Shown: in pieces, positions 5,982-28,679 of the stretch
Layout: every line of letters begins with the position of its first letter
Numbering within the stretch: the stretch's first letter is position 1
Assembly: GCA_020725555.1 (NCBI GenBank)
Contig: DYEU01000007.1
Coordinates: 1-39,221, forward strand
Origin: Desulfatibacillum sp.
GTDB taxonomy: Bacteria; Desulfobacterota; Desulfobacteria; Desulfobacterales; SpSt-501
Direction of reading: 5' to 3'
DNA: 39,221 bases
Made by a program: the position numbers and the translations under genes
The notes under the pieces: generated by a model
What the model was told of the DNA's origin: nothing
The model's input: only the letters and a program-made list of their open reading frames with translations
Databases searched by the model: none

Positions 5982-7391
5982 ATGCGCCGCAGCCAACCCC
6001 TGCTGTTGATTCCCGTCGAAAACCAGGTCCGCGAGCTTGACCCGAAGCTGTTGCTCGCCTGCATCGCCGCCCGCCGCGGGTTTTCCTCGATCATCGGCGC
6101 CCGCCGCGACATGGAAATGCGGATCGACGGGTTTCCGCGCGCGATCTACCTCTCCAAGAGCATGACGGTCCGCAGCCTCCTCTTCTTCCAGGCGGCCGTG
6201 AAGTACGGCCACGACATCATCACCTGGGACGAGGAGGCGCTCGTCCATCTCCCGCCGGACACCTATTATTCGCGCCGCCTCCACCCGCGCGCCATCCGCT
6301 ATGTCAGCCACCTCTTCGCCTGGGGAGAGGAGAACGCGGAACTCTGGAGGGGCTACCCCCATCTCCCCCCGGGCATCCCCATCCACGTGACCGGCAACCC
6401 GCGAAGCGACCTGTTGCGCCGGGAGCTGCACGGCTACTACGCCGAGGATCTCGCCCGCATCCGTGCGGAGTTCGGCCCCTACCTGCTCGTGAACACCAAT
6501 TTCAACCACGTGAACGCCTTCGGGCCGGACATGAACCTCTTCAAGCCCGTCAAGCGGCCGGGGCGAAGGCCGCGCTTCGGCCGCGCGGCGCGGGGCATGA
6601 GCCGCGCCTACGCCGAGGGGTTGCGCGACCACAAACTCGCCGTTTTCCGCGACTTTCAGGAGATGATCCCGCGCCTGGAGGCGGCGTTTCCCGACTTCAC
6701 GATCGTGGTGCGGCCGCACCCGACCGAGAGCCACGACGTCTACCGCCGCATCGCGTCCGGTTGCCGACGGGTGCGCGTCACCAACGCCGGAAACGTCGTC
6801 CCCTGGCTGCTGGGGGCGACCGCCCTGGTGCACAACGGCTGCACGACCGGGGTCGAGGCCTTCGAGCTGGGCGTTCCCGCGCTGAGCTACCGGGCGACGG
6901 TGAACGAGGCCTACGACGCCGGCTTCTACCGGTTGCCGAACGCCCTGAGCTACAATTGCTTTTCCTTCGAGGAGCTCGAGGACACCCTGCGGCGGATCCT
7001 GGAGGGGAGGCTCGGACCGCCGGACGGGGAGGAGCGGCGCCGCCTGCTGCGCCGCCATCTGGCCGCTCCGGACGGCCCGCTCGCCTGCGAGCGGATCGTG
7101 GCGGTTCTCGAGAACATCGCCGCGGCGCAGGCCGCCTCCCCGCGCGACGGCTTTTTCGGGGGAATCGAGCGCCGCCTGACCTCCCTCGGGCTGAGCGCCC
7201 TGCGCACCGTCAAGTCGCTCCTTCCCGGATCCCACAACCGGCCGGAGTTCCAGCGCCACCGCTATCCCGGCCTGCCGCTGCCCGAGGTGGCGCAAAGGCT
7301 GGAGCGCTTCCAGAGCCTCCTCGGCGGGCCCCGCGTGCCGCTCGCGGTCGAGCCCGTCACCGAGACCATCTACCGCATCCGGGTGCCGTAA
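5982..7391 (+). CDS. Surface carbohydrate biosynthesis protein (TIGR04396-like), copy 1
   Basis: This 469-residue soluble protein has motifs reminiscent of GT-B fold transferases. They are an N-terminal IPVENQVRELD, VTGNPRSDLL near residue 137, a RPHPTESHD segment, and a late HNGCTTGVEA that would form the donor-binding helix. I believe it belongs to the surface carbohydrate biosynthesis family described in TIGRFAMs. The family is linked to O-antigen and nonulosonate loci, but its biochemistry is not defined. It is followed after 19 bases by a close paralogue (7411-8832), and the pair seems to have its own promoter at 5924-5952. A cytoplasmic glycosyltransferase role is inferred, not shown. 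Confidence 0.72.
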   Translation: MRRSQPLLLIPVENQVRELDPKLLLACIAARRGFSSIIGARRDMEMRIDGFPRAIYLSKSMTVRSLLFFQAAVKYGHDIITWDEEALVHLPPDTYYSRRLHPRAIRYVSHLFAWGEENAELWRGYPHLPPGIPIHVTGNPRSDLLRRELHGYYAEDLARIRAEFGPYLLVNTNFNHVNAFGPDMNLFKPVKRPGRRPRFGRAARGMSRAYAEGLRDHKLAVFRDFQEMIPRLEAAFPDFTIVVRPHPTESHDVYRRIASGCRRVRVTNAGNVVPWLLGATALVHNGCTTGVEAFELGVPALSYRATVNEAYDAGFYRLPNALSYNCFSFEELEDTLRRILEGRLGPPDGEERRRLLRRHLAAPDGPLACERIVAVLENIAAAQAASPRDGFFGGIERRLTSLGLSALRTVKSLLPGSHNRPEFQRHRYPGLPLPEVAQRLERFQSLLGGPRVPLAVEPVTETIYRIRVP

Positions 7392-7410: not shown

Positions 7411-8832
7411 ATGGCCGCCGCCCCCCCGCTCATCATCCCCGTCGAGAACCAGGTGCGCGAGCTCGATGCGAAGCTCCTGCTCGCCTGCCTCGCCGCGCAA
7501 CGCGGCTTCGAGTCCATCCTCGGCTCGCACCGCGAGATCGACCTGCACATCGCCTCGTTTCCGCGCGGGCTCTACCTGAACAAAAGCATGACCGCCCGCA
7601 ACCTGAACATGTTCCACATCCTCGGGCGGCTCGGCCACCGCATCCTCACCTGGGACGAGGAAGCCCTCGTGCACCTGCCGCCCGAAATTTACTACTCGCG
7701 GCGCCTCTCCCCGGAGGCGATCCGCTTCGTCTCCCACCTCTTCGCCTGGGGCGAGGACAACGCCGAGCTCTGGCGCAACTGGCCGCACCTGCCGGCGGAG
7801 ATCCCCATCCACGTGACCGGAAACCCGCGCAACGACATGCTCCGCCCCGAGCTGCGCCCTTTCCACGAGGAAGAGGTCCGGCGCATCCGCGACCGCTACG
7901 GCGACTATCTCCTCGTCAACACCAACTTCAACCACGTCAACGCCTTCTTTCCCGCCCAGAACCTGTTCCGGCCCGGCACGGCGGAAGGGGGACGTCCCGC
8001 CTTCGGCAAGGCGGGCGTGGGCATGCCGCTCGACTTCGCCCGCGCCCTCCATGGGCAGAAATCGGCCGTGTTCCGAGCCTTTCTGCAGCTGATCCCCGAG
8101 CTCGCCCGGGCCTTCCCGCGGTGTTCCATCATCGTGCGGCCCCACCCCACCGAGGGGCAGTCCGTCTACCGGGAGGCCGCGCGGGGTTTCGCCAACGTGC
8201 ATGTGACCAACGAGGGCAACGTCGTGCCCTGGCTGCTCGGGGCGCGGGCCCTTGTGCACAACGGCTGCACGACGGGCGTGGAAGCCTACGTGATGCGCAT
8301 CCCGGCCTTCACCTACCGCCCCGCGGTCTGCGCCGCCATCGACGACACCTTCTACCGCCTGCCGCACGGGGTGAGCCACGCCTGCTTCACGGCCGAGGAT
8401 CTCGTCACGGGGCTTCAGGACGTTCTGGCGGGGCGGTTGGGGGCCGCCGGGGGGGAGGAGCGGGAACGCCTCGTCCGGCGGCACCTTGCGGGGATGGAGG
8501 GACCGCTGGCCTGCGAGCGGATGCTGGAGGTCATCGCCGGGATCGCCGCCCGGGAACCGGCTCTCCCGGGGCCGCCGCTTGGCAGCCGGATCGCCGGCCG
8601 GGCCCTCGCCGCGGCGCGCCTGCTCGTCAAGCGCGCCAAGGCCTACCTTCCCGGCTCGCATGCGCCGCCGGAATTTCACCGCCACCGCTACCCCGGCATC
8701 CCCCCGGAGGAGCTGGCCTCAAAAATCGGGCGCCTCACGGCCGCCATCGGCACAGGGCCGCCCCCCCGGGCGGAGTGGATCGCCCCGCACATCGTGAACA
8801 TCCGGCCGCCCGAGGGCGGGCGGCCGGCTTGA
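7411..8832 (+). CDS. Surface carbohydrate biosynthesis protein (TIGR04396-like), copy 2
   Basis: This 473-residue protein is a paralogue of its upstream neighbour. By eye well over half of the positions match, including ENQVRELD, TWDEEALVHLP, VSHLFAWGE, HVTGNPR, LLVNTNFNHVNAF, RPHPTE and HNGCTTGVEA. The two differ mainly in the insert after the NFNHVNAF strand and in the linker before the conserved C-terminal 'LPGSH-PEF-RHRYPG' motif. This is the pattern of an old tandem duplication followed by divergence, perhaps towards different sugars. It is co-oriented with copy 1 at a 19-base gap. Function is inferred only as part of surface-glycan assembly. Confidence 0.72.
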   Translation: MAAAPPLIIPVENQVRELDAKLLLACLAAQRGFESILGSHREIDLHIASFPRGLYLNKSMTARNLNMFHILGRLGHRILTWDEEALVHLPPEIYYSRRLSPEAIRFVSHLFAWGEDNAELWRNWPHLPAEIPIHVTGNPRNDMLRPELRPFHEEEVRRIRDRYGDYLLVNTNFNHVNAFFPAQNLFRPGTAEGGRPAFGKAGVGMPLDFARALHGQKSAVFRAFLQLIPELARAFPRCSIIVRPHPTEGQSVYREAARGFANVHVTNEGNVVPWLLGARALVHNGCTTGVEAYVMRIPAFTYRPAVCAAIDDTFYRLPHGVSHACFTAEDLVTGLQDVLAGRLGAAGGEERERLVRRHLAGMEGPLACERMLEVIAGIAAREPALPGPPLGSRIAGRALAAARLLVKRAKAYLPGSHAPPEFHRHRYPGIPPEELASKIGRLTAAIGTGPPPRAEWIAPHIVNIRPPEGGRPA

Positions 8833-9823: not shown

Positions 9824-10714
9824 TCACTCCCACACCAGCTCGACCAGCTGCAGGTCCACCCAGCCGACGAGCGGCACCTCGAAGCCGGCCGAGAGCGGCA
9901 CCCTGCCGTCGCGGCGGAGGACGAGCCGCGTGCCGTCCTTGAGAAATTCCTCCGCCTCCCCGCGGTAGGTGCCGACCGGGCGGGAGGACACGCGCAGACC
10001 GCAGGCTGCGGTCTTGCCGCTGCGGCGCTCGCGTGCGTCCCCCGCCTGTTCCAGGTAGTCGAAGGCGATCTCCTCGAGATCCTCCTCCTCGAGCTGCACG
10101 CGGTGCACCTGGCGTTTGTGGAAGACGCAAAGCGCCTCCTCGCCGGCCCTTTCCGCCCCGCCGCCCGCGAGCATGCGGTAAAACAGGCCCGAGGTCTCCA
10201 GCACCGAGGCGCACTCCTCGGGGAAGGGATAGCGGTGCTCGCCGGTCCGGGTCCATCTGGCCGGAGGCAGCTCCGCCTCGCGGGCCGTTGCGGGCTCGCG
10301 CTGCCGGCGGACGGCGCCCCGCGGCGAGAAGCGGAAGGCCTGCTCGTAATCCTTGAGCCCGCGCCGCGTGCGCAAAAGGAAGCAGGGCGCCGCATGCTCC
10401 GGCTCCATCCAGAGATGGTTCTCGATCCGGATCGCGCTCCGGCCGGGCAGCTCAAGGCGCAGCACGAGCGATAGGCGCAGCAGTCCGCCGGAGGTTGCGG
10501 CGCGGCACCGGGGGTGGGGCGGTGCGGCGGGAAACGCCTCCGGCGCCGGGGGTGCGGCGTGGCGTTCGATCTGCGCTTCCGCCACGATCCGGCCGCCCAG
10601 CCGCTCGGCCAGGAACATCGCGCGCACCGGGAGCCGGGGCCCCTCCGCGGCCGGGGCGGCGGCGCCCGAGGCCGATAGAATCAGCAGGGCCCACGCGAGG
10701 CCTCGGCCGCTCAT
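9824..10714 (-). CDS. Hypothetical exported protein
   Basis: I do not recognise this family with confidence; a DUF3108-like exported protein is one possibility. The 296-residue product starts with a signal peptide (a run of Leu/Ala ending near SGAAAPAAEG, about residue 24). The rest looks beta-rich, with alternating charged and hydrophobic residues and no membrane helix. It ends in 'VPLVGWVDLQLVELVWE'. The start at 10714 overlaps the stop of the upstream PEP-synthase-like gene by four bases (ATGA), so the pair is translationally coupled. The longer frame to 10771 would extend into that gene and is not preferred. A periplasmic or envelope role is inferred from the signal peptide only. Confidence 0.6.
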   Translation of the reverse strand: MSGRGLAWALLILSASGAAAPAAEGPRLPVRAMFLAERLGGRIVAEAQIERHAAPPAPEAFPAAPPHPRCRAATSGGLLRLSLVLRLELPGRSAIRIENHLWMEPEHAAPCFLLRTRRGLKDYEQAFRFSPRGAVRRQREPATAREAELPPARWTRTGEHRYPFPEECASVLETSGLFYRMLAGGGAERAGEEALCVFHKRQVHRVQLEEEDLEEIAFDYLEQAGDARERRSGKTAACGLRVSSRPVGTYRGEAEEFLKDGTRLVLRRDGRVPLSAGFEVPLVGWVDLQLVELVWE

Positions 10715-13293
10715 GCGCCACGCTCCTCGAGAAAGCGGTAATTTCCCCGGAAGAACTCCTCGACGTACCACTCGACCTGGCGGTCCTCGGAGAGGTGCAT
10801 GTCGAGCAGCCGCACCGCGCCCAGGAGCCGCCCGATCCGGTCGAGCGTCTCGAGGATCGCCGACTCCTCGTATTTCTTGAGCTCCCCGCGGACCAGATCC
10901 CCTTTCTGCTCGACCTTGAACCCCAGCCGCCGCAGGATCTGCGCGATCAAAAGCGCCCTGCGGGTGCGCCGGCCGAGGTCCGCCGCACCCCCCTTGAAGT
11001 AGAAGAGGATGTAGTTGTCGTTCACCTCCCGGCTGCAGAAGCTGTCGATGGTGGTGAAGTGGTAGCCGATGCGGGCGTTGAAATTGAGGTAGCGGCCGCC
11101 GACCAGCGCGTAGCTCGGCTCGCCCATGCGGGCCTCCCGGAGCGGGTCCCGGATGGCCGTCTGGGCGACGATGGAGGCGAGCCCGCTCCAGCTGAAGCCG
11201 ACGTTCTGCGACCAGTCGACCCCCTCGTGGCCCATTCCCTGGAGGAGCGCCCGGAAGGGGATCGAGGTCACGTCCTCGATCTCCGCGACCGCCCCCCGGC
11301 GGTCGGCCCGCAGCCCGTTGCCCAGGTCCACGGCGAGGATGCGGAAGGGCAGCCCGGCCCGCACCGGAACGGCGTGGATCGCGTCGGGGTCGAGCTGGTC
11401 ACCGAGGCGGAACATCTCCTGCATCGCCATCTCGTGGGCGAAGCGGATCACGTCGTGCAGGGTGCGGCAGCCGGCAGGGGTGAACTGATCGCTTTGGGGG
11501 TCGGTGAGGTGGAGCGGGGCGATGCGGCGCAGGACCGATTTCACCAGCTGGTGGGCGGGGCTCCCCCGCATGGGGTTCACGGGCGGGGGGGCGGCGAGAA
11601 GGGCGTCGACCCGGCCGCGGTAGACGACGCGGCGGGTCGCGTCCACGGTGATCTCCTCGCCGTGGGGGATGGCCTCGGTTGCGCCCCCCACGCCGACGAG
11701 CGCCGGGACCCGGAATTCGCGGGCGACCGAAGCCATGTGGCCCGTCACGCTGCCGACCTCGGTGACGAAGGCGCGCACCCGCCCCATCAGGGGGACGAAG
11801 CGGGGGGAGGTCTGGCGGGTGACGACGATCGCGCCCTCGGGAACGTGGTGGAGCGCGTGGTCCGAGCGCAGGACGTAGGCGGCGCCGGCGGCCGTGCCCT
11901 CGCTGGCGGTTTGGCCGCCCGCGACCAGCACCGGGTGCCGTGCGGGGTCGACCGCGGGGACGGTCCTCTCCGGCTCCGCGGGGCGATCCGCCTCCCGGCG
12001 GGCGAGCGGGCGGGCTTGGAGCAGAAAGAGGCGGTCGGCTTCGTCGAGCGCCCACTCGATGTCGAGCGGCACCCCGTAATGCGCCTCGAGCTTGAGGCCG
12101 TAGTCGACCAGCCGGCCGATCTGCTCGTCGCTCAGGCAGGGCGCCTCTTGCCGCTCGGCCGGCACGGCCTCCTCGCGCACGCCGCCCTCCGGGTCGAGCC
12201 GCAGCCGAGTCTCCTTGCGGGCGACTTGCCGCACCCGCACGCGCCGCTCCCGGCGATCGATCTCGTAGAAGTCGGTCGCCGCCGCCCCCTCGACCGCGTC
12301 CGCGGCCAGCCCCCAGACGGCGCTCACGAGCATCGCGTCGCGCTGGCGGTCGTGCGGGTCCCGGGTGTAGAGGACTCCGCTCACGGCCGCCGGCACCATG
12401 GCGATGCAGGCGACGCTCATGGCGACGTCCTGCTCGCGGTAGCCGCGGCGGCGGCGGTAGTAGATCGCCCGCGGGCTGTAGAGGCTCGCCACGACTTCCC
12501 GGTAGGCCCGGGCCAGCCCCTCCTCGGGGACGTTGAGCACGGTCGCGTGCTGGCCGGCGAAGCTCGCCTCCGAGTCTTCGCTGGTGGCACTGCTGCGCAC
12601 GGCGAGCCGGACGGTTCCTCCGCAGCGCTCGCCGAGTTCATGGGCGGCCCGCCGGATCGCCTGCTCGAGATCCGCCGGGAGCTCGGCCTCGAGGATCCGC
12701 TGCTGGACCTCCTCCGCGGCACGGGTCAACGCCTCGGTGTCGTCCAGGTCCACCTTGGCCAGGCGACGGGGGATGAAGTCGCTCAAGTCGTTGTAGTCCA
12801 GGAAGAGCTGGTAGGCGTAGGCGGTGATCGCAAAGCCGGGCGGCACGGGCAGGTGGACGCGGTTGGCGATCTCCCCCAGGCCGGCCGCCTTGCCGCCCAC
12901 CTCCTGGACGTTCTCCAGGCTCAGGCGCTCGAGCGGCTGGACGAACCCCGTATCCTCGAAACGGCGCTTGCGCAGGAGCTCGGAAAGGACCCCCTCGGCG
13001 ATGCGGCGGCTCGCCGCGGCGAGCTCCTCATAGCGCCCCCCGGAAAGGGCGTTCAGCCGCCGCACGATGGCGTCAACCTCGACCGAGAGGGCCTCGGCCT
13101 GGGTGACGATGTGGAGAAACGAAAACGGCTTGTCCTGGTAGACCGTGGATTCGAGGTCGGCGATGATCTCAAGGGCCCGGTTGTTCGCCTGGAGCAACTC
13201 CTTGAAGTTTTCGTACTTGTCCTGAAAGAGGTTCGCCTCGCGCTCTTCGTTGCGGGGCGCGCGCCTGCGGAACACCTCGAGCCAACGAAACAT
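10711..13293 (-). CDS. PEP synthase-like protein with unusual C-terminal domain
   Basis: This 860-residue protein has an N-terminal helical region (about 1-120). A pyruvate/ATP-binding domain like that of PEP synthase follows from about 125 to 440, with VGGKAAGLGEI and RSSATSEDSEASFAGQ. A swivelling phosphohistidine domain spans about 455-555, with the His in SVTGHMASVAREF. Normal PEP synthases continue into a PEP/pyruvate-binding TIM barrel. Here the last ~290 residues instead form a region with 'QNVGFSWSGL', 'YALVGGRYLNFNARIGYHF' and 'NDNYILFYFKGG', which I do not recognise. ATP binding and phosphotransfer to a His look possible, but the final acceptor is unclear. It is coupled to the exported protein downstream. 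Annotation as a plain pyruvate, water dikinase would be unsafe. Confidence 0.75.
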   Translation of the reverse strand: MFRWLEVFRRRAPRNEEREANLFQDKYENFKELLQANNRALEIIADLESTVYQDKPFSFLHIVTQAEALSVEVDAIVRRLNALSGGRYEELAAASRRIAEGVLSELLRKRRFEDTGFVQPLERLSLENVQEVGGKAAGLGEIANRVHLPVPPGFAITAYAYQLFLDYNDLSDFIPRRLAKVDLDDTEALTRAAEEVQQRILEAELPADLEQAIRRAAHELGERCGGTVRLAVRSSATSEDSEASFAGQHATVLNVPEEGLARAYREVVASLYSPRAIYYRRRRGYREQDVAMSVACIAMVPAAVSGVLYTRDPHDRQRDAMLVSAVWGLAADAVEGAAATDFYEIDRRERRVRVRQVARKETRLRLDPEGGVREEAVPAERQEAPCLSDEQIGRLVDYGLKLEAHYGVPLDIEWALDEADRLFLLQARPLARREADRPAEPERTVPAVDPARHPVLVAGGQTASEGTAAGAAYVLRSDHALHHVPEGAIVVTRQTSPRFVPLMGRVRAFVTEVGSVTGHMASVAREFRVPALVGVGGATEAIPHGEEITVDATRRVVYRGRVDALLAAPPPVNPMRGSPAHQLVKSVLRRIAPLHLTDPQSDQFTPAGCRTLHDVIRFAHEMAMQEMFRLGDQLDPDAIHAVPVRAGLPFRILAVDLGNGLRADRRGAVAEIEDVTSIPFRALLQGMGHEGVDWSQNVGFSWSGLASIVAQTAIRDPLREARMGEPSYALVGGRYLNFNARIGYHFTTIDSFCSREVNDNYILFYFKGGAADLGRRTRRALLIAQILRRLGFKVEQKGDLVRGELKKYEESAILETLDRIGRLLGAVRLLDMHLSEDRQVEWYVEEFFRGNYRFLEERGA

Positions 13294-19946: not shown

Positions 19947-22900
19947 ATGCCGAAACGCACGGACATCCGCAAGGTCCTCATCATCGGCTCGGGGCCGATC
20001 GTCATCGGCCAGGCTTGCGAATTCGATTACTCCGGAACCCAGGCCTGCAAGGCCTTGCGCTCGCTCGGGTACACCATCGTTCTGGTCAACTCCAACCCGG
20101 CCACGATCATGACCGACCCCGAGATGGCCGAGGCGACCTACATCGAGCCCCTCAACGCGGCGGTGCTCGAGGAGATCATCGCCGCCGAGCGGCCCGATGC
20201 CGTTCTCCCCAACCTCGGCGGCCAGACGGGGCTCAACCTCGTCTCCGAGCTCCACCGCAACGGGGCGCTCGCGCGCTGGGGCGTGCAGGTGATCGGCGTC
20301 AACCTGCAGGCCATCGAACGCGGAGAGGACCGCACGGCGTTCAAGGAAACCATGGCCCGGCTGGGAATCGAGACGCCGCGCAGCCGGGCGGTCGGCAACG
20401 TCGCCGAGGCCGAGGCCGTGGCCGAGTCGTTAGGCTACCCGGTCGTCGTGCGGCCGGCCTACACCCTGGGGGGGACCGGCGGCGGGCTCGTCCACACCCC
20501 GGAGGAGCTCCGCCGGATCGCCGCCCGCGGGCTGGCCGCCAGCCTGATCCACCAGGTGCTGATCGAGGAGTCCGTCCTCGGCTGGGAGGAGCTCGAACTC
20601 GAGGTGGTCCGGGACGCCAAGAACCGCAAGATCACCGTCTGCTTCATCGAGAACATCGACGCCATGGGCATCCACACCGGGGACAGCCTCTGTGTCGCGC
20701 CGATGCTCACGATCGGCCCGGATCTCCAGCGCCGCCTCCGGGAGGACTCCTACCGCATCGTGGAGGCGATCGAGGTCATCGGCGGCACCAACATCCAGTT
20801 CGCCCACGACCCGCAGAGCGGCCGCCTGGTCGTCATCGAGATCAACCCGCGCACCTCGCGCTCCTCGGCGCTCGCCTCCAAGGCGACCGGGTTCCCGATC
20901 GCACGCGTCTCCGCCCTGCTCGCCGCGGGCATGACCCTCGATGAGCTCCCCTACTGGAAGGGCGGGACCCTCGCCGACTACGAGCCCTCCGGCGATCACG
21001 TGGTCGTCAAGTTCGCGCGCTGGGCCTTCGAGAAGTTCCGGGGCATCGAGGACCGCCTGGGGACCCAGATGCGCGCCGTGGGCGAAGTGATGAGCATCGG
21101 GCGGACCTACAAGGAAGCCCTGCAAAAAGCCGTCCGCAGCTTGGAGATCGGCCGCCACGGGCTGGGGTTCGCCAAAAACTTCCATGACCTGCCGCTTGCG
21201 CGGCTGCTGGAGATGCTCTCCGTGCCGACGAGCGAGCGGCAGTTTCTGCTCTACGAGGCCTTGCGCAAGGGGGCGGAGATCGGGGCCCTGGCGCGCCTCA
21301 CGCACATCAAGCCCTGGTTCCTCGAGCAGATGAAGGACCTGGTCGCCCTGGAGGAGGAAATCCTCTCCCGGCGGGGGGGCCCGCTGCCGCCGGAGCTGCT
21401 GCGGCGGGCGAAGGAGGACGGCTTCTCCGACCGCTATCTCGCCGGACTTCTGGGCATCGCCGAGGGGGAGATCCGCCGCATGCGGCGCGCGGCGGGCATC
21501 GCGCCGGTCTGGCAGCCCATCCCCGTGAGCGGCGTCGAAAACGCCGCCTATTACCATTCCACCTACCACGGGGAAGACCGCGTCCCGGTCGACCGCCGGC
21601 GCAAGATCCTCGTCCTCGGCGGCGGCCCCAACCGCATCGGCCAGGGGATCGAGTTCGACTACTGCTGCGTCCACGCCGCCTACGCCCTGCGCGAGGCCGG
21701 CTGGGAAGCGATCATGATCAACTGCAACCCCGAAACGGTCTCCACCGATTACGACACGGCCGACCGGCTCTACTTCGAGCCGCTCACGGTCGAGGACGTG
21801 CTCGCGATCTATGAAAAGGAGGCCCCCGAGGGCGTGATCGCGCAGTTCGGGGGCCAGACCCCGCTCAACATCGCCCGCGAGCTTGCCGCGGCCGGGGTCC
21901 GCATCCTCGGCACCTCGCCCGAGGCGATCGACCTCGCCGAGGACCGCGACCGGTTCCGGGAGATGATGCAGCGGCTGGGCATCCCCATGCCCGAGGCCGG
22001 CATGGCGGGCGGCATCGAGGAAGCCCGCGCCGTGGCCCGGAGCATCGGCTACCCGGTGATCGTGCGGCCCTCGTACGTGCTCGGCGGCCGCGGCATGGAG
22101 ATCGTGCACGACGAGGGGATGCTCGAGGAGTACATGCGGGCGGCGGCCGAGGTCTCCCCGGAGCGGCCGATCCTGATCGACAAGTTCCTCGACAACGCGA
22201 TCGAAGCCGAGGCCGACGCGATCTGCGACGGAAAAAGCGCCTTCGTCCCGGCGGTCATGGAGCACATCGAGCTGGCGGGCATCCACTCCGGGGATTCGGC
22301 CTGCGTCATCCCGCCGATCAGCCTCGCCCCCAAGCACATCGACACGATCGGCGAGACGACCCGCCGCATCGCCGTCGAGCTGGGCGTCGTCGGGCTGATG
22401 AACCTCCAGTACGCGATCTTTGAGAACACGGTCTACGTCCTCGAGGCGAACCCGCGGGCCTCGCGGACGGTGCCGCTTGTCTCCAAGGTCTGCGGCATCT
22501 CCATGGCGAAAATCGCCACCCGCGTCATTCTCGGGGAAACCATCGCCGGGCTTGGCCTGCGGGAGCGTCGGATCCCCCATTATGGGGTCAAGGAGGCGGT
22601 GTTCCCCTTCAACATGTTCCCCGAGGTCGACCCCGTGCTCGGCCCCGAGATGCGCTCGACCGGCGAGGTGTTGGGGCTCTCCTATTCCTTCGGCCGGGCC
22701 TTCTTCAAGGCCCAGGAGGCCGCCTCGGGGCGGCTGCCGCTCGAGGGGACGGTCCTCTTCACCATCGCCGACCGCGACAAGAACGCGGCCATCGAGCCCG
22801 CGCGCCGCTTCCGCGAGCTCGGCTTCCGGCTCATGGCGACCGAGGGCACCCACCGGTTCCTCGAGGAAAAGGGGATCGAATCGATCCCGGTCCCCAAGCT

Positions 22901-23147
22901 CGGCGCCGGCCGGCCCGACCTCTTGGATGCGATCCGCGAGGGCCGGGTGCAGCTTCTGGTGAACACCCCGAGCGGACGCCGCGGCGCCGCGGACAGCTCC
23001 GAGATCCGCCGCGCGGCGATCCGCCACCGGGTTCCCTACATCACGACCACGGCGGCGGCGATCGCCGCCGCCAAGGGGATTGCGGCCCGCCGCGAGGGCG
23101 CCCCGCAGGTGCGCCCGCTGCAACGCTACCTCGCGGAAATCCGCTGA
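19947..23147 (+). CDS. carB: Carbamoyl-phosphate synthase large subunit
   Basis: This 1066-residue protein has the duplicated ATP-grasp layout of CarB. The first half begins GSGPIVIGQACEFDYSG (residue 14 on) and the second GGGPNRIGQGIEFDYC (about 555 on), each followed by its own ATP-grasp domain. An MGS-like C-terminal regulatory domain follows from about 930. The enzyme makes carbamoyl phosphate from bicarbonate, ammonia (supplied by CarA from glutamine) and two ATP, for pyrimidines and arginine. CAGGAG at about 19934 supports the start. No carA lies in the window. A PurF-like gene follows after 41 bases on the same strand and is probably co-transcribed. Length and motifs are normal. Confidence 0.97.
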   Translation: MPKRTDIRKVLIIGSGPIVIGQACEFDYSGTQACKALRSLGYTIVLVNSNPATIMTDPEMAEATYIEPLNAAVLEEIIAAERPDAVLPNLGGQTGLNLVSELHRNGALARWGVQVIGVNLQAIERGEDRTAFKETMARLGIETPRSRAVGNVAEAEAVAESLGYPVVVRPAYTLGGTGGGLVHTPEELRRIAARGLAASLIHQVLIEESVLGWEELELEVVRDAKNRKITVCFIENIDAMGIHTGDSLCVAPMLTIGPDLQRRLREDSYRIVEAIEVIGGTNIQFAHDPQSGRLVVIEINPRTSRSSALASKATGFPIARVSALLAAGMTLDELPYWKGGTLADYEPSGDHVVVKFARWAFEKFRGIEDRLGTQMRAVGEVMSIGRTYKEALQKAVRSLEIGRHGLGFAKNFHDLPLARLLEMLSVPTSERQFLLYEALRKGAEIGALARLTHIKPWFLEQMKDLVALEEEILSRRGGPLPPELLRRAKEDGFSDRYLAGLLGIAEGEIRRMRRAAGIAPVWQPIPVSGVENAAYYHSTYHGEDRVPVDRRRKILVLGGGPNRIGQGIEFDYCCVHAAYALREAGWEAIMINCNPETVSTDYDTADRLYFEPLTVEDVLAIYEKEAPEGVIAQFGGQTPLNIARELAAAGVRILGTSPEAIDLAEDRDRFREMMQRLGIPMPEAGMAGGIEEARAVARSIGYPVIVRPSYVLGGRGMEIVHDEGMLEEYMRAAAEVSPERPILIDKFLDNAIEAEADAICDGKSAFVPAVMEHIELAGIHSGDSACVIPPISLAPKHIDTIGETTRRIAVELGVVGLMNLQYAIFENTVYVLEANPRASRTVPLVSKVCGISMAKIATRVILGETIAGLGLRERRIPHYGVKEAVFPFNMFPEVDPVLGPEMRSTGEVLGLSYSFGRAFFKAQEAASGRLPLEGTVLFTIADRDKNAAIEPARRFRELGFRLMATEGTHRFLEEKGIESIPVPKLGAGRPDLLDAIREGRVQLLVNTPSGRRGAADSSEIRRAAIRHRVPYITTTAAAIAAAKGIAARREGAPQVRPLQRYLAEIR

Positions 23148-23188
23148 ATGCGCGGGCTCCCCCCCCCGGGAAAGGAGGCTCAACCTTC

Positions 23189-24592
23189 ATGGGCGGCTTG
23201 TTCGGCATCGCCTCGCGCTCGGATTGCACCGGCGACCTCTTCTACGGGACCGACTACCATTTCCACCTCGGAACCCGCTACGGCGGGATGGCGGTGCGCA
23301 ACGCGCAGGGGATCGAGCGCTCCATCCACAGCATCGAGAACAGCTATTTCCGGACGAAGTTCGAACCCGAGCTGCCGCACTTCCACGGCACCATGGGCAT
23401 CGGCGTGATCAGCGACACCGACCCCCAGCCCATCTTCATGGCCTCGCACCTGGGGACCTTCGGGCTCGTCACCGTCGGGAAAATCGCGAACATCGAGGAG
23501 CTGGTGCGGCGCGCCTTCGGCCGGCGCCGCTACTTTTCCGACACCTCCGGCTCCGGCATCAACCCCACGGAACTCGCGGCAAACCTCATCTGCGAGCACG
23601 ACAGCTTCGAAGCCGGCATCCGCGCCGCCCAGGAAGCGATCCGCGGCTCACTCACGCTGCTCTTGCTCGCCGAGGGGGGCGTCTGGGCCGCGCGCGACCG
23701 CCTGGGCCGCACCCCCCTCGCCCTCGGCCGCCGCGGGGACGCGGTGGCCGTCGCCTCGGAGACCTGCGCCTTCGCCAACCTCGGCTTCCGCACCGAAGCC
23801 TTTCTGGGCCCAGGGGAGGTGGTCTTTTTCGACGCCGAGGGCTGGGAGCGGAGAGTCCCGCCGGGGCGGGAAATGCAGATCTGCGCCTTCCTGTGGATCT
23901 ACTACGGCTACCCGGCTTCGGACTACGAGGGGATCAACGTGGAGGAGGCGCGCAACCGCTGCGGCGCCGCGCTCGCCCGCGGGGACGACACCGCGGTCGA
24001 TTTCGTGGCCGGGATTCCCGACTCGGGGATCGGCCACGCGATCGGCTACGCCTCGGAGCGGGGGATTCCCTACCGGCGGCCCTTCGTCAAGTACACGCCG
24101 ACCTGGCCGCGGAGCTTCATGCCCCAGAACCCGGCGATGCGCGATCTGGTGGCGAAGATGAAGCTCATCCCCGTCCGCAGCCTGATCGAGGGGAAACGCC
24201 TGCTCTTCTGCGAGGACTCGATCGTGCGCGGCACCCAGCTCAAGGACACGATCGGCACCCTCTACCGATGCGGGGCGCGCGAGGTGCACATGCGGCCGGC
24301 CTGCCCCGTCCTCATCCACCCCTGCGAGTTCATCAACTTCTCCACCTCCCGATCCACCCTCGACCTCGCCGGCCGCCGGGCGATCCAGGAGCTCGAGGGG
24401 GACTCGCCCCGCGATCTCGCGGCCTACGCCCGGGCGGGATCGCCCGAAAACCGGGCCATGGTGGAGATCATCCGCCGCCGCCTCAACCTCACCACCCTGA
24501 AATACCAGCGGCTCGAGGACATGGTGGCGGCCATCGGTCTTCCCCGGGAAACGCTCTGCACCCACTGCTGGGACGCTTCCAGCCGCTTCTGA
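23189..24592 (+). CDS. PurF-like amidophosphoribosyltransferase homologue lacking the glutaminase nucleophile
   Basis: The 467-residue protein has the two-domain layout of glutamine PRPP amidotransferase (PurF). It keeps the PRPP loop 'CEDSIVRGTQ' (about 341-350). It also keeps cysteines where B. subtilis-type PurF binds a [4Fe-4S] cluster: Cys232, Cys379, and Cys457/Cys460 in CTHC. However, it begins MGGLFGIAS where active enzymes have Cys right after Met, so the glutaminase nucleophile is Gly. The oxyanion-hole Asn-Gly also appears changed (VGK in VTVGKIANIEEL). The start is fixed by AAAGGAGG at 23171-23178, and no Cys-start alternative exists. It may use free ammonia, bind PRPP for another reaction, or be regulatory. 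It follows carB by 41 bases. Confidence 0.85.
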   Translation: MGGLFGIASRSDCTGDLFYGTDYHFHLGTRYGGMAVRNAQGIERSIHSIENSYFRTKFEPELPHFHGTMGIGVISDTDPQPIFMASHLGTFGLVTVGKIANIEELVRRAFGRRRYFSDTSGSGINPTELAANLICEHDSFEAGIRAAQEAIRGSLTLLLLAEGGVWAARDRLGRTPLALGRRGDAVAVASETCAFANLGFRTEAFLGPGEVVFFDAEGWERRVPPGREMQICAFLWIYYGYPASDYEGINVEEARNRCGAALARGDDTAVDFVAGIPDSGIGHAIGYASERGIPYRRPFVKYTPTWPRSFMPQNPAMRDLVAKMKLIPVRSLIEGKRLLFCEDSIVRGTQLKDTIGTLYRCGAREVHMRPACPVLIHPCEFINFSTSRSTLDLAGRRAIQELEGDSPRDLAAYARAGSPENRAMVEIIRRRLNLTTLKYQRLEDMVAAIGLPRETLCTHCWDASSRF

Positions 24593-24616: not shown

Positions 24617-25540
24617 TCAGCCGCCGATCCGCACCTCGAAGCCGCAACCGGCGAGGAAAGCGCGCGCCGCCTCCACCCGGCCGGGGGAGGCGGCGGGCTT
24701 TCCCTCGAGGCGGTAGCGGCGCCCGAGGCGCCGGTACTTGGGCTCCCCCAGGCGGTGATAGGGCAGCAGGTCGATCCGCCGCACCACGCGGAGCGAGGCG
24801 ACGAAATCGGCCGCCGCGCCGAGCGCCCGCGGGTCGTCGTTTTCGCCCTCGATCAGCGGCATGCGGATCACCAGCTCCGCCCCCGCGTCCGCGAGGCGCC
24901 GCGCGTTTTCGAGGATCCGCTCGTTGCCGCGGCCGGTGAGCCGGCGGTGGGCGGCGGGGTCGGGGTGCTTGAGGTCGTAGAGGAAAAGATCCACCTCGGG
25001 GAGCAGCGCCTCGAGGACCTCCCAGTCCGCCTCGCCGCTCGTCTCCACGGCCGTGTGCGCCCCTTTTTCCTCGCGGCGGTAGCGCCGCAGGAGCTCGAGC
25101 GCGAATTCCGGCTGGGCGAGCGGCTCCCCCCCGGAGAGGGTGAGCCCGCCCCCCGAGTGCTCGGCATAGAGGGCGTCGCGGGCGACTTGGGCGAGCACCG
25201 CCTCGACGGTCATGCGGCGGCCGAAGATCTGGAGCGCCTCCCCGGGGCAGGCCTCGACACAGCGGCCGCAGGCGTCGCAGCGGCCGGGGTCGATCCGGCG
25301 CCCGCCGTCCGCAGCGGGGGCGATCGCCCGGGCGGCGCAAACCTCGAGACAGCGGTTGCAGCCGATGCAGCGCTCGGCGATCCAGACCGCCTCCGGATGC
25401 GCCCGCTGGGACTCGGGGTTGCAGCACCAGCGGCAGCGGAGCGGGCAGCCCTTAAGAAAGACCGTCGTCCTCAGTCCCGGGCCGTCGTGCAGGCTGAAGC
25501 CGCGGATGTCGAAGACCAGGCCGGTTGCGCCGCGAGTCAT
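24617..25540 (-). CDS. Glycyl radical enzyme activating enzyme (radical SAM)
   Basis: The 307-residue radical SAM protein has the activase cluster motif CX3CX2C (Cys32, Cys36, Cys39 in KGCPLRCRWC). Two ferredoxin-type 4Cys clusters follow in an insert (Cys58/61/64/68 and Cys88/91/94/98), then the SAM-binding GGGLTLSGGEP (130-140). It uses SAM and an electron to abstract H from the Gly of its partner enzyme, making the glycyl radical. The two-ferredoxin insert is usual for activases of the dehydratase/lyase classes and absent from classical PflA. Its start overlaps the stop of the partner gene by one base (TGATG at 25538-25542). The frame stays open beyond this start inside the partner gene, which is coincidental. 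Confidence 0.92.
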   Translation of the reverse strand: MTRGATGLVFDIRGFSLHDGPGLRTTVFLKGCPLRCRWCCNPESQRAHPEAVWIAERCIGCNRCLEVCAARAIAPAADGGRRIDPGRCDACGRCVEACPGEALQIFGRRMTVEAVLAQVARDALYAEHSGGGLTLSGGEPLAQPEFALELLRRYRREEKGAHTAVETSGEADWEVLEALLPEVDLFLYDLKHPDPAAHRRLTGRGNERILENARRLADAGAELVIRMPLIEGENDDPRALGAAADFVASLRVVRRIDLLPYHRLGEPKYRRLGRRYRLEGKPAASPGRVEAARAFLAGCGFEVRIGG

Positions 25541-27942
25541 CAGAGGCCGTGCTCGGCGCGCGAGAGGATTTCGAGCTGGATGTCGCGGCTGAGCAGGGTG
25601 AAGTAATCCGAGTACCCCGCGACCCGGATGAGGAGGTTGCGGTGCCGCTCGGGGTGATCCATGGCTTCGAGGAGGATCTCGCGGTCCACGATGTTGAACT
25701 GGACGTGGTGGCCCCCCTGGCTGAAGTAGCCGCGGATCAGGGCGGCGAGCTTGTGCAGGTCGCGGTCGGTCCGGAGCGCCTGGGGGCTGATCTTGAGGTT
25801 GAGCAGCGTGCCGTTGGTCCGCGCGTGATCGAGCTTCGCCACCGAGCGCATCGCCGCCGTGGGGCCCCGGCGGTCGTGGCCCTGGACGGGGCTCACCCCC
25901 TCGGAAAGCCAGGCCCCGGCGCGGCGGCCGTCGGGCGTCGCCCCGGTGAGCTCGCCTAAGGCGATGTGGCTCGTGGTGGGCAAGAGGTCCACCCAGTAGC
26001 GTGCCCCCTGGCAATCGGTGTGCCGTTCGACGGCCGTGCAGAACATCTCCTGGACGGCCACGGCGAGCGCGTCGGCGGCCTCGTCGTCGTTGCCGTAGTG
26101 AGGGGTCTGGTTCACGAGCGCAAGGCGCAGCGCCTCGTCCCCCTCCCAGTTCCGGTCGAGGGCCGCGATCAGCCGCTCCATGGAAACGGTCTGGCGCTCG
26201 AAGACGTGGGTGCGGATCGCCGAGAGGGCGTCGGCGACCGTGCCGACGGCCACCCCGGAGATCGTGGCGATCTTGTACCGCGAGCCCCCCGCGTGCCAGT
26301 CGGTCGCGGCGGCGACGCAGTCCTCGATCAGGGCGGAGGTGAAGGGCACGGGGCAGTGCTCGGCGTAGATCGTGCGCACGAGGTCGTCGTAGCGCACCTT
26401 GAGGGCGACGAAGTGCTCGACCTGGGTCCGGAAGGCCGCGAGCACGTCCTCGAAGCGGGAAAAGTCGCGCGGGTTTCCGGTCGCAGGGCCGAGCCGCTCG
26501 CCCGTCAGGCGGTCCACGCCGTCGTTCAGGGCGAGCTCGAGCGCCTTGGCGAGGTTGAAGTAGCCGCTCGAGGCCATGCGGTCCTTACCGTCGCAAAACC
26601 CGGCGACGCAGCCGTTCAGGCTGCTCGCGCGGGCGTCCTCGAGGCTCTTGCCGCGGTTCACCATGCCGAGGACGAGGACGTCGGCGTTGAACATCGCCGG
26701 CATGCCGGTTCCCAGCCGCAGCACCTCGCAGCAGCGCAGGAGGAATTTCGGGGCGGTGGCCGAGGCGATCTGCGCCGAGAGCCCGGGCTGGGGAAGACGG
26801 GTGTGCTCGAGGGCGTTGAGGCAGGCGTAGGAGAGCTCGTTCACCGCGTCGCGGCCGGTGCGCGTGAGCCCGCCGATGTTGAGGTTCTGGAAATCGGGGT
26901 AGGAGCTCGACGTCTGCGATTCCCCGGAATCCTTGGCGAGGGTGATCTCGTCGAACTTGACCCAGAGGCAGTCGATCAGCTCCTGGGCCTCGTCGGCCGT
27001 CAGCTCGCCGCGCTCGAGGCTTTCGCGGTAGAAGGGATGGAGGTACTGGTCGAAACGGCCCGGGCCGAAGGCATGGCCGGGGGTCTCGAGGTTGAGCACG
27101 AGGTGGGTGATCCAGAAGGACTGCAGGGCCTCGTGGAAGCCGCGTGCGGGGTGCTCGGGCACGCGGTCGAGGATCGCGGCGATCCGCTCGAGCTCCGCGC
27201 GGCGCAGCGGGTCCGGGGTGCCGCGGGCGATCCGCCGGGCCTCGGCGGCATGCCGCGCGGCGAAGCGGACCACGGCCTCGCAGACCCGGGCCACGGATTC
27301 GAGAAATCGGCTGCGGCCCGCAAAATCGGGGGCCCCCCGGTCGAGCCGTGCTTCGGCGGCTTCGACCTCGGCCAGGATCCCCCGCATCCCGAGGCGCAGG
27401 ACCTTCTCGTAGCCCGCCTGGATGTGCCCGATCGAACGCGACCGGAAGTAGTTGTAGATCACACCGCGCTCGTCGGCCCGCCGGATTTCCTCCGGGACGG
27501 CCTCCTCGATGCGGTCGGCGATCTGCCGCCCTTTCCAGAAGGGGAAGACCTCCGTGCGCAGGATGTGCTTGGTTTCCTCGCTCACGTGGAAGGGCGTGTC
27601 CTTGCGCGTGGCCAGCCGGTCGAGGTCGCGCTCGAGCCAGCTGCAGTTGATCTCGGGATAGACGGGTGACCCGCGCGGGGTGAGCGCTTTCATGCCGACG
27701 ATGAGCTCGCCCTCCTGGATCACCACGGGGTGCTCGTCGAGCACGCGGGCGAGCATCTTCGCCCGCCGCAGGGCGATCGGCTCCCCCTCGGTCTCCCGGA
27801 AGCTGCGGGTCACGGAGACCGCGCGGTGGGCGTGCACCTCGGGGCGGGTGTTGCGGTTCCGTTCGATGCCCCGCACCACCCGCGGCGTGGGGTGGTGGGC
27901 GGGATTCTCCGGGCGAGGGGTGTCGGCAGCGGCGGTCTTCAT
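25540..27942 (-). CDS. Glycyl radical enzyme of unassigned subclass (pyruvate formate-lyase family)
   Basis: The 800-residue protein has the C-terminal glycyl-radical motif RVAGYS (Gly776) followed by DYF and SRDIQLEI. A mid-sequence thiyl Cys445 lies in SSLNGCVAGFC. Most dehydratase, C-N lyase and C-S lyase members have Cys-x-Glu, where the Glu is a catalytic base. Here the second residue after Cys445 is Ala447. It is not the Cys-Cys pair of pyruvate formate-lyase either. Other recognisable blocks are GHAFGPGRFDQYLHPFY (about 289-305) and KDSGESQTSSSYPDFQNLN (about 337-355). It starts in the regulator stop (ATGA) with AAGGAGA seven bases before and is followed directly by its activase. No microcompartment genes are nearby. 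The substrate is unknown. Confidence 0.88.
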   Translation of the reverse strand: MKTAAADTPRPENPAHHPTPRVVRGIERNRNTRPEVHAHRAVSVTRSFRETEGEPIALRRAKMLARVLDEHPVVIQEGELIVGMKALTPRGSPVYPEINCSWLERDLDRLATRKDTPFHVSEETKHILRTEVFPFWKGRQIADRIEEAVPEEIRRADERGVIYNYFRSRSIGHIQAGYEKVLRLGMRGILAEVEAAEARLDRGAPDFAGRSRFLESVARVCEAVVRFAARHAAEARRIARGTPDPLRRAELERIAAILDRVPEHPARGFHEALQSFWITHLVLNLETPGHAFGPGRFDQYLHPFYRESLERGELTADEAQELIDCLWVKFDEITLAKDSGESQTSSSYPDFQNLNIGGLTRTGRDAVNELSYACLNALEHTRLPQPGLSAQIASATAPKFLLRCCEVLRLGTGMPAMFNADVLVLGMVNRGKSLEDARASSLNGCVAGFCDGKDRMASSGYFNLAKALELALNDGVDRLTGERLGPATGNPRDFSRFEDVLAAFRTQVEHFVALKVRYDDLVRTIYAEHCPVPFTSALIEDCVAAATDWHAGGSRYKIATISGVAVGTVADALSAIRTHVFERQTVSMERLIAALDRNWEGDEALRLALVNQTPHYGNDDEAADALAVAVQEMFCTAVERHTDCQGARYWVDLLPTTSHIALGELTGATPDGRRAGAWLSEGVSPVQGHDRRGPTAAMRSVAKLDHARTNGTLLNLKISPQALRTDRDLHKLAALIRGYFSQGGHHVQFNIVDREILLEAMDHPERHRNLLIRVAGYSDYFTLLSRDIQLEILSRAEHGL

Positions 27943-28679
27943 GTCGGGTTCTCCTTGGGCTTGCGGGCGGCGGCCCGTTGCATGATCCGGGTCGCCCGGG
28001 CGACGTGTTCGCGGGCGATCCGTTCGGCCCGCTCCCCGTCGCCGCGGCGCACCGCGTCCACGAGGGCTTCGAGCTCGGAGAGGGTTGCGCGGATCACGGC
28101 AAGGCTGCGCGGCAGGAAGGCCCGGATGTGTCGTCGGTGGACGTTGTGGTGCACGGTCTCCAGGAAAACGCGGTGCAGGGGGTTCCCGGCGAGGTGGGCG
28201 AGGGCGAGGTGGATGTCGCGGTCGGCCGCCATGAACTCCTCCCAGCGCGCCGGGCCCTCGGCCGCAAGCGCCGCGGCGCGCGCGAGAAGTTGATCGAGGG
28301 CTTTCCGGCCCCGGCCGCGGCAGCGCAGGGCGGCGCGGCGGGCGAGCAGGCCCTCGAGGTCCTGGCGGAACTCGGAGAGCTCCGCGAGCGTGACGCCCCG
28401 CGACTGGAGGAAAATCCGGAGCTGCTCGGCCATGGGCTCGGCGTTCACGGGCTTGACGAACACCCCGCCCCGCTGGCCCTTGCGAATTTCAACCAGCCCC
28501 TTCTGCTCGAGCACGCGCAGGGACTCGCGCAGCGTGTTGCGGCTGACGGCGAACTCGCGCTGCAACTCGCGCTCGGGGGGCAGGCGCTCGCCCTGGGCGA
28601 AGGCACCGCCCAGGATGGCTCCCTCGAGCTGCACGGTCACCGCCTCGAACGCCCGCTGGGGCTGAACGCGGCGAAACAC
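27939..28679 (-). CDS. FadR/GntR-family transcriptional regulator (FCD domain)
   Basis: The 246-residue regulator has an N-terminal winged helix-turn-helix (about 15-75; ERLPPERELQREF, SRNTLRESLRVLEQKGLV). An all-helical FCD ligand domain follows, in which Asp153, His157, His177/178 and His225 could bind a metal and so a carboxylate ligand. The start is GTG at 28679 behind GGGGAGG. Its stop overlaps the glycyl radical enzyme start by four bases, so regulator, enzyme and activase form one operon. A palindrome matching the FadR-family consensus lies on the promoter just upstream (28702-28714). Autoregulation and substrate-triggered release are therefore likely. The inducer is probably the enzyme's substrate or product, but this is inference. 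Confidence 0.88.
   Translation of the reverse strand: MFRRVQPQRAFEAVTVQLEGAILGGAFAQGERLPPERELQREFAVSRNTLRESLRVLEQKGLVEIRKGQRGGVFVKPVNAEPMAEQLRIFLQSRGVTLAELSEFRQDLEGLLARRAALRCRGRGRKALDQLLARAAALAAEGPARWEEFMAADRDIHLALAHLAGNPLHRVFLETVHHNVHRRHIRAFLPRSLAVIRATLSELEALVDAVRRGDGERAERIAREHVARATRIMQRAAARKPKENPT

Follow-up and report, generated by a model that had tools for sequence, protein, structure and literature searches.

A PurF homologue lacking glutaminase signatures beside a second carbamoyl-phosphate synthetase large subunit: a probable ammonia-dependent entry to nucleotide synthesis

A homologue of PurF, PurF2, has been identified in a 39,221-nucleotide stretch of Desulfatibacillum sp. DNA (the window). 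The protein has lost its glutaminase signatures, keeps its PRPP and Fe-S sites and is conserved across phyla, and its gene follows, in an operon layout, that of a second CarB (CarB2) without an adjoining carA; some related genomes are without the glutamine-dependent set. Judged from sequence comparison, PurF2 is best read as an ammonia-dependent PRPP aminotransferase (probability about 0.55), and the position of purF2 next to a CarA-less second CarB probably lets these microbes begin nucleotides from free ammonia. PurF2 would convert PRPP and NH3 to 5-phosphoribosylamine (PRA) and PPi at its phosphoribosyltransferase (PRTase) domain, its glutaminase half being presumably inactive and still shaping the protein, and CarB2 would act as a carbamoyl-phosphate synthetase large subunit working without CarA. 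Together, the two genes would let the synthesis of purines and pyrimidines begin with free ammonium, not glutamine, in parallel with the glutamine-dependent carA-carB1-purF genes, with ammonium supply as the likely driver.

The purF2 gene, its protein and its relatives

The purF2 gene (23189..24592, +), recognized as an open reading frame with profile and phmmer matches and an AlphaFold2 model, encodes an intact protein of 467 aa with the N-terminus MGGLFGIASRSD (MGGLFG). It starts 41 bp behind the end of carB2, and a Shine-Dalgarno-like AAAGGAGG (23171..23178, +; read from the sequence) sits 10 nt 5' of its ATG, therefore an upstream start concealing a Cys is unlikely. The product matches B. 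subtilis PurF (1ao0) with an E-value of 4.9e-51 (phmmer) and reaches 185 bits to the NCBIfam model TIGR01134, below the curated cut-off of 350, which places it outside the PurF equivalog. Met-Gly-Gly (23189..23197, +) replaces the N-terminal Cys, the nucleophile of PurF. In comparison with 1ao0 and canonical PurFs, Arg26 is changed to Leu27, the oxyanion Asn101 to Val96 (23474..23476, +), the Asp127 region is altered and, in the alignment, the Arg73-Tyr-Ser-Thr-Thr-Gly loop is deleted. The retained elements are: (i) the PPi loop PDSG (277-280); (ii) the PRPP loop DSIVRGT (343-349), within EDSIVRGTQ (342-350; 24212..24238, +), where Gln350 stands for the canonical Thr; (iii) Cys232 (PurF Cys236; 23882..23884, +), Cys379 (PurF Cys382; 24323..24325, +), and Cys457 with Cys460 (24557..24568, +), by sequence a complete ligand set for a B. 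subtilis-type [4Fe-4S] cluster. The flexible loop of the PRTase domain, K301-P312 KYTPTWPRSFMP (24089..24124, +), is remodelled around a retained Lys301 and Arg308.

The AlphaFold2 model, built from 39 sequences, has a mean pLDDT of 88.9 and a pTM of 0.88, and its sole segment with pLDDT below 50 (residues 307-309) lies inside this flexible loop. Top structure matches, for which Foldseek was also used, are PurFs (6lbp, Z 41.7, rmsd 2.1, 428 residues; 1ao0, Z 41.5), and the model predicts the whole-chain PurF fold, an Ntn domain followed by a type I PRTase.

Homologues were collected at E<=1e-60 from 296 genomes of the phylum; the 78 carriers were divided by identity into 62 of group A, to which the window belongs, and 16 of clade B. 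A named genome scan yielded at least 594 PurF2 relatives, the best 80 of which span many phyla, and none was found in the viral contigs searched. The phrase "suited to anaerobes" in an earlier note on this DNA agrees with the generally known lifestyle of the taxa named among these best 80 of at least 594. The residue alignment comprised 121 group-A proteins (41 of the 62 from the phylum, the window included, and 80 from the named scan), 16 of clade B and 20 canonical PurFs.

Cys1 is absent from every group-A row (121/121). The start reads M[G/S]G in 41/41 phylum rows and [M/V][G/S]G in 78/80 rows of the named scan, the remaining two being one contig-cut and one VVG. The position of Arg26 is Leu or Met in all 121, all 121 have lost the Tyr-Ser-Thr-Thr-Gly that follows Arg73 and carry another residue for the Arg itself, and no Asn occurs at the position of Asn101 in the 120 rows printed (40/41 phylum, 80/80 named scan; one residue unprinted). 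On the other side of the molecule, the four Fe-S cysteines, PDSG, the flexible-loop Lys and Arg, and DS[IV]VRGTQ are each present in 121/121, leaving the PRTase site intact, and Glu is replaced by Leu three residues past Cys232 in 117/121. The claims of the earlier note that the nucleophile Cys is lost, that the oxyanion Asn is replaced and that the four cysteines and PRPP loop remain are thereby borne out by the alignment; the Gly whose conservation it proposed to check is shared as described, and a Cys hidden by sequencing error, which it had allowed for, is excluded, with Cys in 0/121 homologues.

Canonical PurFs retain Cys1, Arg26, Arg73, Asn101, the Asp and a Thr after RGT in 20/20. Clade B (16/16) retains Cys1 and Arg26, has lost the Arg73 loop, carries Ser for Asn101, and shows RGTQ together with a PPi loop changed to PMSG. 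Since Cys1 is present and the glutamine pocket is gone, clade B looks, from its residues, like an intermediate between canonical PurF and group A. In a tree of 104 rows, group A, clade B and canonical PurF are each monophyletic with SH-aLRT 100, by a quick method that carries a long-branch warning; because no outside PurF roots this tree, A and B are taken as sisters to the exclusion of canonical PurF on the basis of the derived traits they share. Treatment of clade B as an "active" glutaminase on the strength of its Cys was dropped, as the Arg73 loop and Asn101 are missing.

The mean pairwise identity of the dead domain in group A is 0.53, versus 0.56 for the live domain of canonical PurF, and that of the PRT domain is 0.62 versus 0.63. 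Across the 121 aligned proteins 74 positions are at least 98% identical, and the 78 phylum matches contain no internal stop. The Bacteroides genes BT0553-0556 were considered as a purF2 locus and rejected, BT0552-0553 being glutamate synthase in a published paper.

CarB2 and the gene neighbourhoods

The carB2 gene (19947..23147, +) encodes a full-length protein of 1066 aa which reaches 1345.8 bits to TIGR01369, above the cut-off of 1027, and is by this measure a CarB. It shares 52% identity over 1071 positions with CarB1, the carA-linked copy on contig C30, and its ATP-grasp residues appear retained against E. coli CarB (by eye, in the printed part of the alignment). The single carA of the genome over the cut-off lies on C30 adjoining CarB1; no carA adjoins carB2 in the window. 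The pairing with carB reported in the earlier note thus stands insofar as a full-length CarB adjoins purF2, but this CarB is a distinct second one and not the carA-linked copy. CarB by itself is able to use ammonia, and CarB2 is predicted to be independent of CarA; CarA from the carA-carB1 locus may serve CarB2 in trans where both occur.

With the window CarB as query, full-length matches in the 296 genomes split into an upper set of 1566-2370 bits (at least 66% identity, the window at the top) and a lower set of at most 1286 bits (at most 57%); two incomplete matches (G110 and G278; 1314-1394 bits) were counted as CarB2. So defined, CarB2 occurs in 104 of 296 phylum genomes. In the phylum listing it is present in 49/62 group-A genomes and missing from 13/62, and it is present in 15/16 clade-B genomes, the sixteenth (G130, L085) having a contig-cut CarB2 adjoining the gene; tests of CarB2/PurF2 co-occurrence ignore phylogeny and are descriptive only. 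The named scan revealed a CarB of at least 64% identity in 10/30 PurF2 genomes (one Desulfobacterales) and none in 20/30. The CarB2 of G060 (L208) has an N-terminal extension.

Clade B adjoins carB2 in 16/16 loci (L079-L094). Group A does so in 8/41 loci with flanks, some of them short (the window, L041, L045, L047, L051, L052, L057 and L074), with carB2 upstream, downstream or on the opposite strand; further carB2/purF2 neighbours are indicated by coordinates in G031 and G092, and in the named scan carB2 lies near purF2 in L102 and L133. In L083 (G278, a one-contig genome) carB2 is broken by one in-frame TGA; the gene is uninterrupted in G160 of the same genus. Among 93 purF2 neighbours scanned, CarB (7) and GuaA (6) were the most frequent, guaA adjoining purF2 in six loci, and no strong recurrent neighbour beyond CarB2 and GuaA was found in the wider synteny. 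Several loci place purF2 among purine genes (products assigned by eye): purL-purQ-purC-purE-purF-purF2 on an Anaerolineae contig (L128), purL-purF2-purF (L126), purF2 convergent with purF in Lokiarchaea (L118), and purF2 followed by a PurF-like gene (L124) or by purD (L156).

The order carA-carB1-purF on one strand was present in 7/9 relatives picked by suggestive coordinates (G118, G141, G258, G067, G202, G033 and G160), although a gap separates the carA of G258 from its carB1; the order in G066 is purF-carB1-carA, and in G185 carA and carB1 are there and purF is not. Given this order, carB2-purF2 resembles the carA-carB1-purF cluster minus both glutaminase functions.

Elsewhere in the window, and assigned by eye, ORFs at 24617-28679 (-), convergent with purF2, resemble a glycyl-radical activating enzyme, a glycyl-radical enzyme and a GntR-type regulator; a large protein at 10711-13293 (-) has an N-terminus like that of a carB2 neighbour in G122 and G040 (L181, L183); and the adjacent ORFs 5982-7391 and 7411-8832 begin alike (PVENQVRELD..KLLLAC.AA.RGF) and look like a tandem duplication.

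Presence and loss of the glutamine-dependent genes

The second, canonical purF that the earlier note suggested looking for does exist in the genome of the window (G000; 3.59 Mb, 35 contigs): it lies at C29:9419-10750, scores 506 bits and has the Cys, HRGQ, RYSTTG and HNGN. Contig C30 has the order argG-carA-carB1 (argG by eye), the canonical purF being on a separate contig. The search for canonical PurF covered 71 of the 78 carriers and 8 non-carriers; matches over the cut-off were found in 61/71 carriers, G000 included, and 7/8 non-carriers. A widespread replacement of PurF by PurF2 was considered and rejected: of the ten carriers without such a match, G016, G098, G145, G158 and G253 hold canonical-looking PurF fragments, G239 has a scar within a contig, and G124, G139 (both 90% complete), G219 and G293 show no canonical purF, for which gaps in the assemblies may be responsible.

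At E<=1e-30, carA was not detected in 19/296 genomes. It is missing at this threshold from 10 of the 12 CarB2 genomes with a single CarB match (G007, G030, G031, G076, G138, G139, G145, G174, G219, G238, G239 and G293), and the carA-negative list includes 0/92 of the CarB2 genomes with two; at most two CarB matches were scored per genome, and in G158 both are CarB2-like. Six genomes (G020, G036, G096, G228, G246 and G269) have no CarB2, no carA and no CarB match (E<=1e-200), therefore the excess among CarB2 genomes is modest (10/104 versus 6/192, Fisher p 0.03). Three more, G125, G130 and G287, are carA-negative with a CarB match outside the CarB2 list, that of G130 being probably the contig-cut CarB2.

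The remnants and absences come from draft assemblies, in which a single gap or misassembly could delete carA, carB1 and purF together, given how often the three adjoin. Of the two remaining genomes of the twelve, G138 (C144, L228) keeps carA as two short pieces that differ in frame and carB1 as its last, C-terminal third, around an intact guaA and beside an intact purF, and its CarB2 is intact; G031 has carA and a CarB1 at a contig edge. G030 has a C-terminal CarB1 fragment. In G219, G293 and, at 90% completeness, G139, purD is present and none of carA, CarB1 and canonical purF was seen; the purF2 homologues of G293 and G139 are of clade B. In G124 canonical purF is missing and carA present, and in G238 and G145 carA is missing and canonical purF present (as a fragment in G145).

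The relative G239 (99% complete, 180 contigs, 2.9 Mb) can be regarded as a natural experiment. A whole-genome search with TIGR01134 gave three matches: PurF2 at 190.9 bits, a piece of 45 positions at 48.2 bits, and one in a frame of 640 codons that is regarded as GlmS. The piece (L229:6625-6980, inside a 21.8-kb contig) consists of purF residues 6-47, a stop and carB1 residues 846-898, and continues with an apparent CTP-synthase (pyrG) C-terminus, by eye, all joined within a few hundred bases. No carA was detected (E<=1e-30), and carB1 and purF are represented by scraps only. PurF2 is intact and adjoins guaA, and CarB2 is also present. By tblastn over about 1.59 of the 2.9 Mb, purD, purH, purC, purL, purQ, purM, purN, guaA and guaB were found, purB was the weakest of the purine genes found (30% identity), and purE was not found with a single query. 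The dead PurF2 is thus the only full-length PurF found in G239, together with eight later purine genes.

These distributions bear on the reading of PurF2 as a PRPP-sensing pseudo-amidotransferase which tunes CarB2 or canonical PurF and so places nucleotide entry under PRPP control. The canonical PurF of 61/71 carriers fits a regulator, as do the adjacency to carB2 in 16/16 clade-B and 8/41 group-A loci, with varying gene order and orientation, and a dead domain conserved about like the live one (53% vs 56%). However, G239 and G219 show no full canonical PurF to regulate, G239 having the later purine genes, many carriers are without CarB2, and the PPi loop with the flexible-loop Lys and Arg is kept in 121/121, perhaps beyond the needs of binding. 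A sensor is thus unlikely, if by a narrow margin the likeliest of the alternatives. The earlier note had offered an ammonia-dependent enzyme or a protein that binds PRPP in some new role; the intact PRPP site and G239 favour the first, and the second is disfavoured.

Ammonia as substrate, precedents and implications

The nearest precedent for PurF2 is PurF' of the Crenarchaeota, which Brown et al. (2011, PMC3261824) suggest to be a PRPP aminotransferase that depends on ammonia. As described there, PurF' resembles PurF2 in being a Cys-less PurF paralogue that clusters with purine genes in genomes also encoding canonical PurF; G000 itself has the paralogue together with canonical PurF. Many PurF' have Ala or Val at the Cys site, whereas PurF2 has M[G/S]G, the loop deletion and RGTQ. 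Unlike PurF', the PurF2 family is bacterial and Asgard-archaeal, is sometimes beside CarB2, and has some carriers without full canonical PurF. A literature search, with most subscription journals outside its scope, found nothing on a bacterial PurF2 family and PMC3261824 as the sole match to the idea. A 2026 preprint on the oxygen sensitivity of B. theta (PMC13252398) discusses CarAB and does not contain the term purF.

Canonical PurF (EC 2.4.2.14; 1ao0, 1gph, 6lbp) shares with PurF2 the whole fold, the Fe-S cysteines and the PPi and PRPP loops; PurF2 differs in lacking the nucleophile, the Arg73 loop and the oxyanion Asn, and in scoring 185 against the cut-off of 350 bits. Likewise, CarB2 matches TIGR01369 as does the CarB of CarAB carbamoyl-phosphate synthetase, yet forms a separate score set with no adjoining carA. 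In E. coli PurF, replacement of the Cys by Ala or Ser abolished glutamine use and left ammonia use (Mei & Zalkin 1989, as cited in PMC3261824), and, according to PMC7056826, the ammonia channel of PurF requires a closed flexible loop. The remodelled flexible loop and lost glutamine loop of PurF2 therefore fit ammonia from solution as the probable nitrogen source. Against the ammonia-dependent reading, most carriers keep a canonical PurF (61/71), and CarB2 is not obligatory, being missing from 13/62 and 20/30 genomes.

The derived flexible loop and the Thr->Gln change of the PRPP loop could also mean a different nucleophile. PurF2 would then transfer phosphoribosyl to an acceptor other than ammonia, by analogy with beta-lactam synthetase, which reused asparagine synthetase. 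The changes do lie on the acceptor side (the loop, Thr->Gln in 121/121, Glu->Leu in 117/121), and beta-lactam and carbapenam synthetases occur among the fold matches; these are amidotransferase relatives like PurF2, with a dead glutaminase half, whose synthetase domain and chemistry differ. The purine-gene neighbours nevertheless point to PRA itself, as does G239, where a purine pathway is accompanied by PurF2 as the only full-length PurF found, and this second alternative is unlikely. It is improbable that PurF2 is fed ammonia by a separate glutaminase in trans and hence still depends on glutamine: guaA, with its own GATase, adjoins purF2 in six loci and more GATase-domain matches occur in the genomes searched for carA, but no dedicated glutaminase recurs among the 93 neighbours (CarB 7 and GuaA 6 at the top), and the Arg73-Tyr74 loop, whose Tyr is part of the usual ammonia channel, is deleted. 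PurF2 probably has no other glutaminase partner. That purF2 is a decaying relic or sequencing error, as the lost catalytic residues might suggest, has a negligible probability in view of at least 594 relatives, 74 positions at least 98% identical in 121 proteins and no internal stop in 78 matches.

The ammonia-dependent reading of PurF2 can be extended to the gene pair. We suggest tentatively, at somewhat less than even odds, that carB2 and purF2 make up a complete module by which both nucleotide pathways are entered independently of glutamine, formed from carA-carB1-purF paralogues minus both glutaminase functions, and that G239, G219 and G293 (in the last case with the clade B form, which keeps its Cys) have discarded the glutamine set and start from ammonia alone. 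If so, cells with only carB2-purF2 should resist glutamine analogues at both steps. The nearest models are PurF (below cut-off) and glutamine-hydrolysing CarB (above it), so that a name-based reconstruction would assign a glutamine donor. If the ammonia-dependent reading is true, glutamine-free nucleotide entry occurs in many bacteria and Asgard archaea, the majority from anaerobic groups, and models of nitrogen cost, like the responses predicted for glutamine analogues, would change. The family also offers a means of testing what was suggested for archaeal PurF' in 2011, namely that Cys-less PurF paralogues are ammonia-dependent enzymes.
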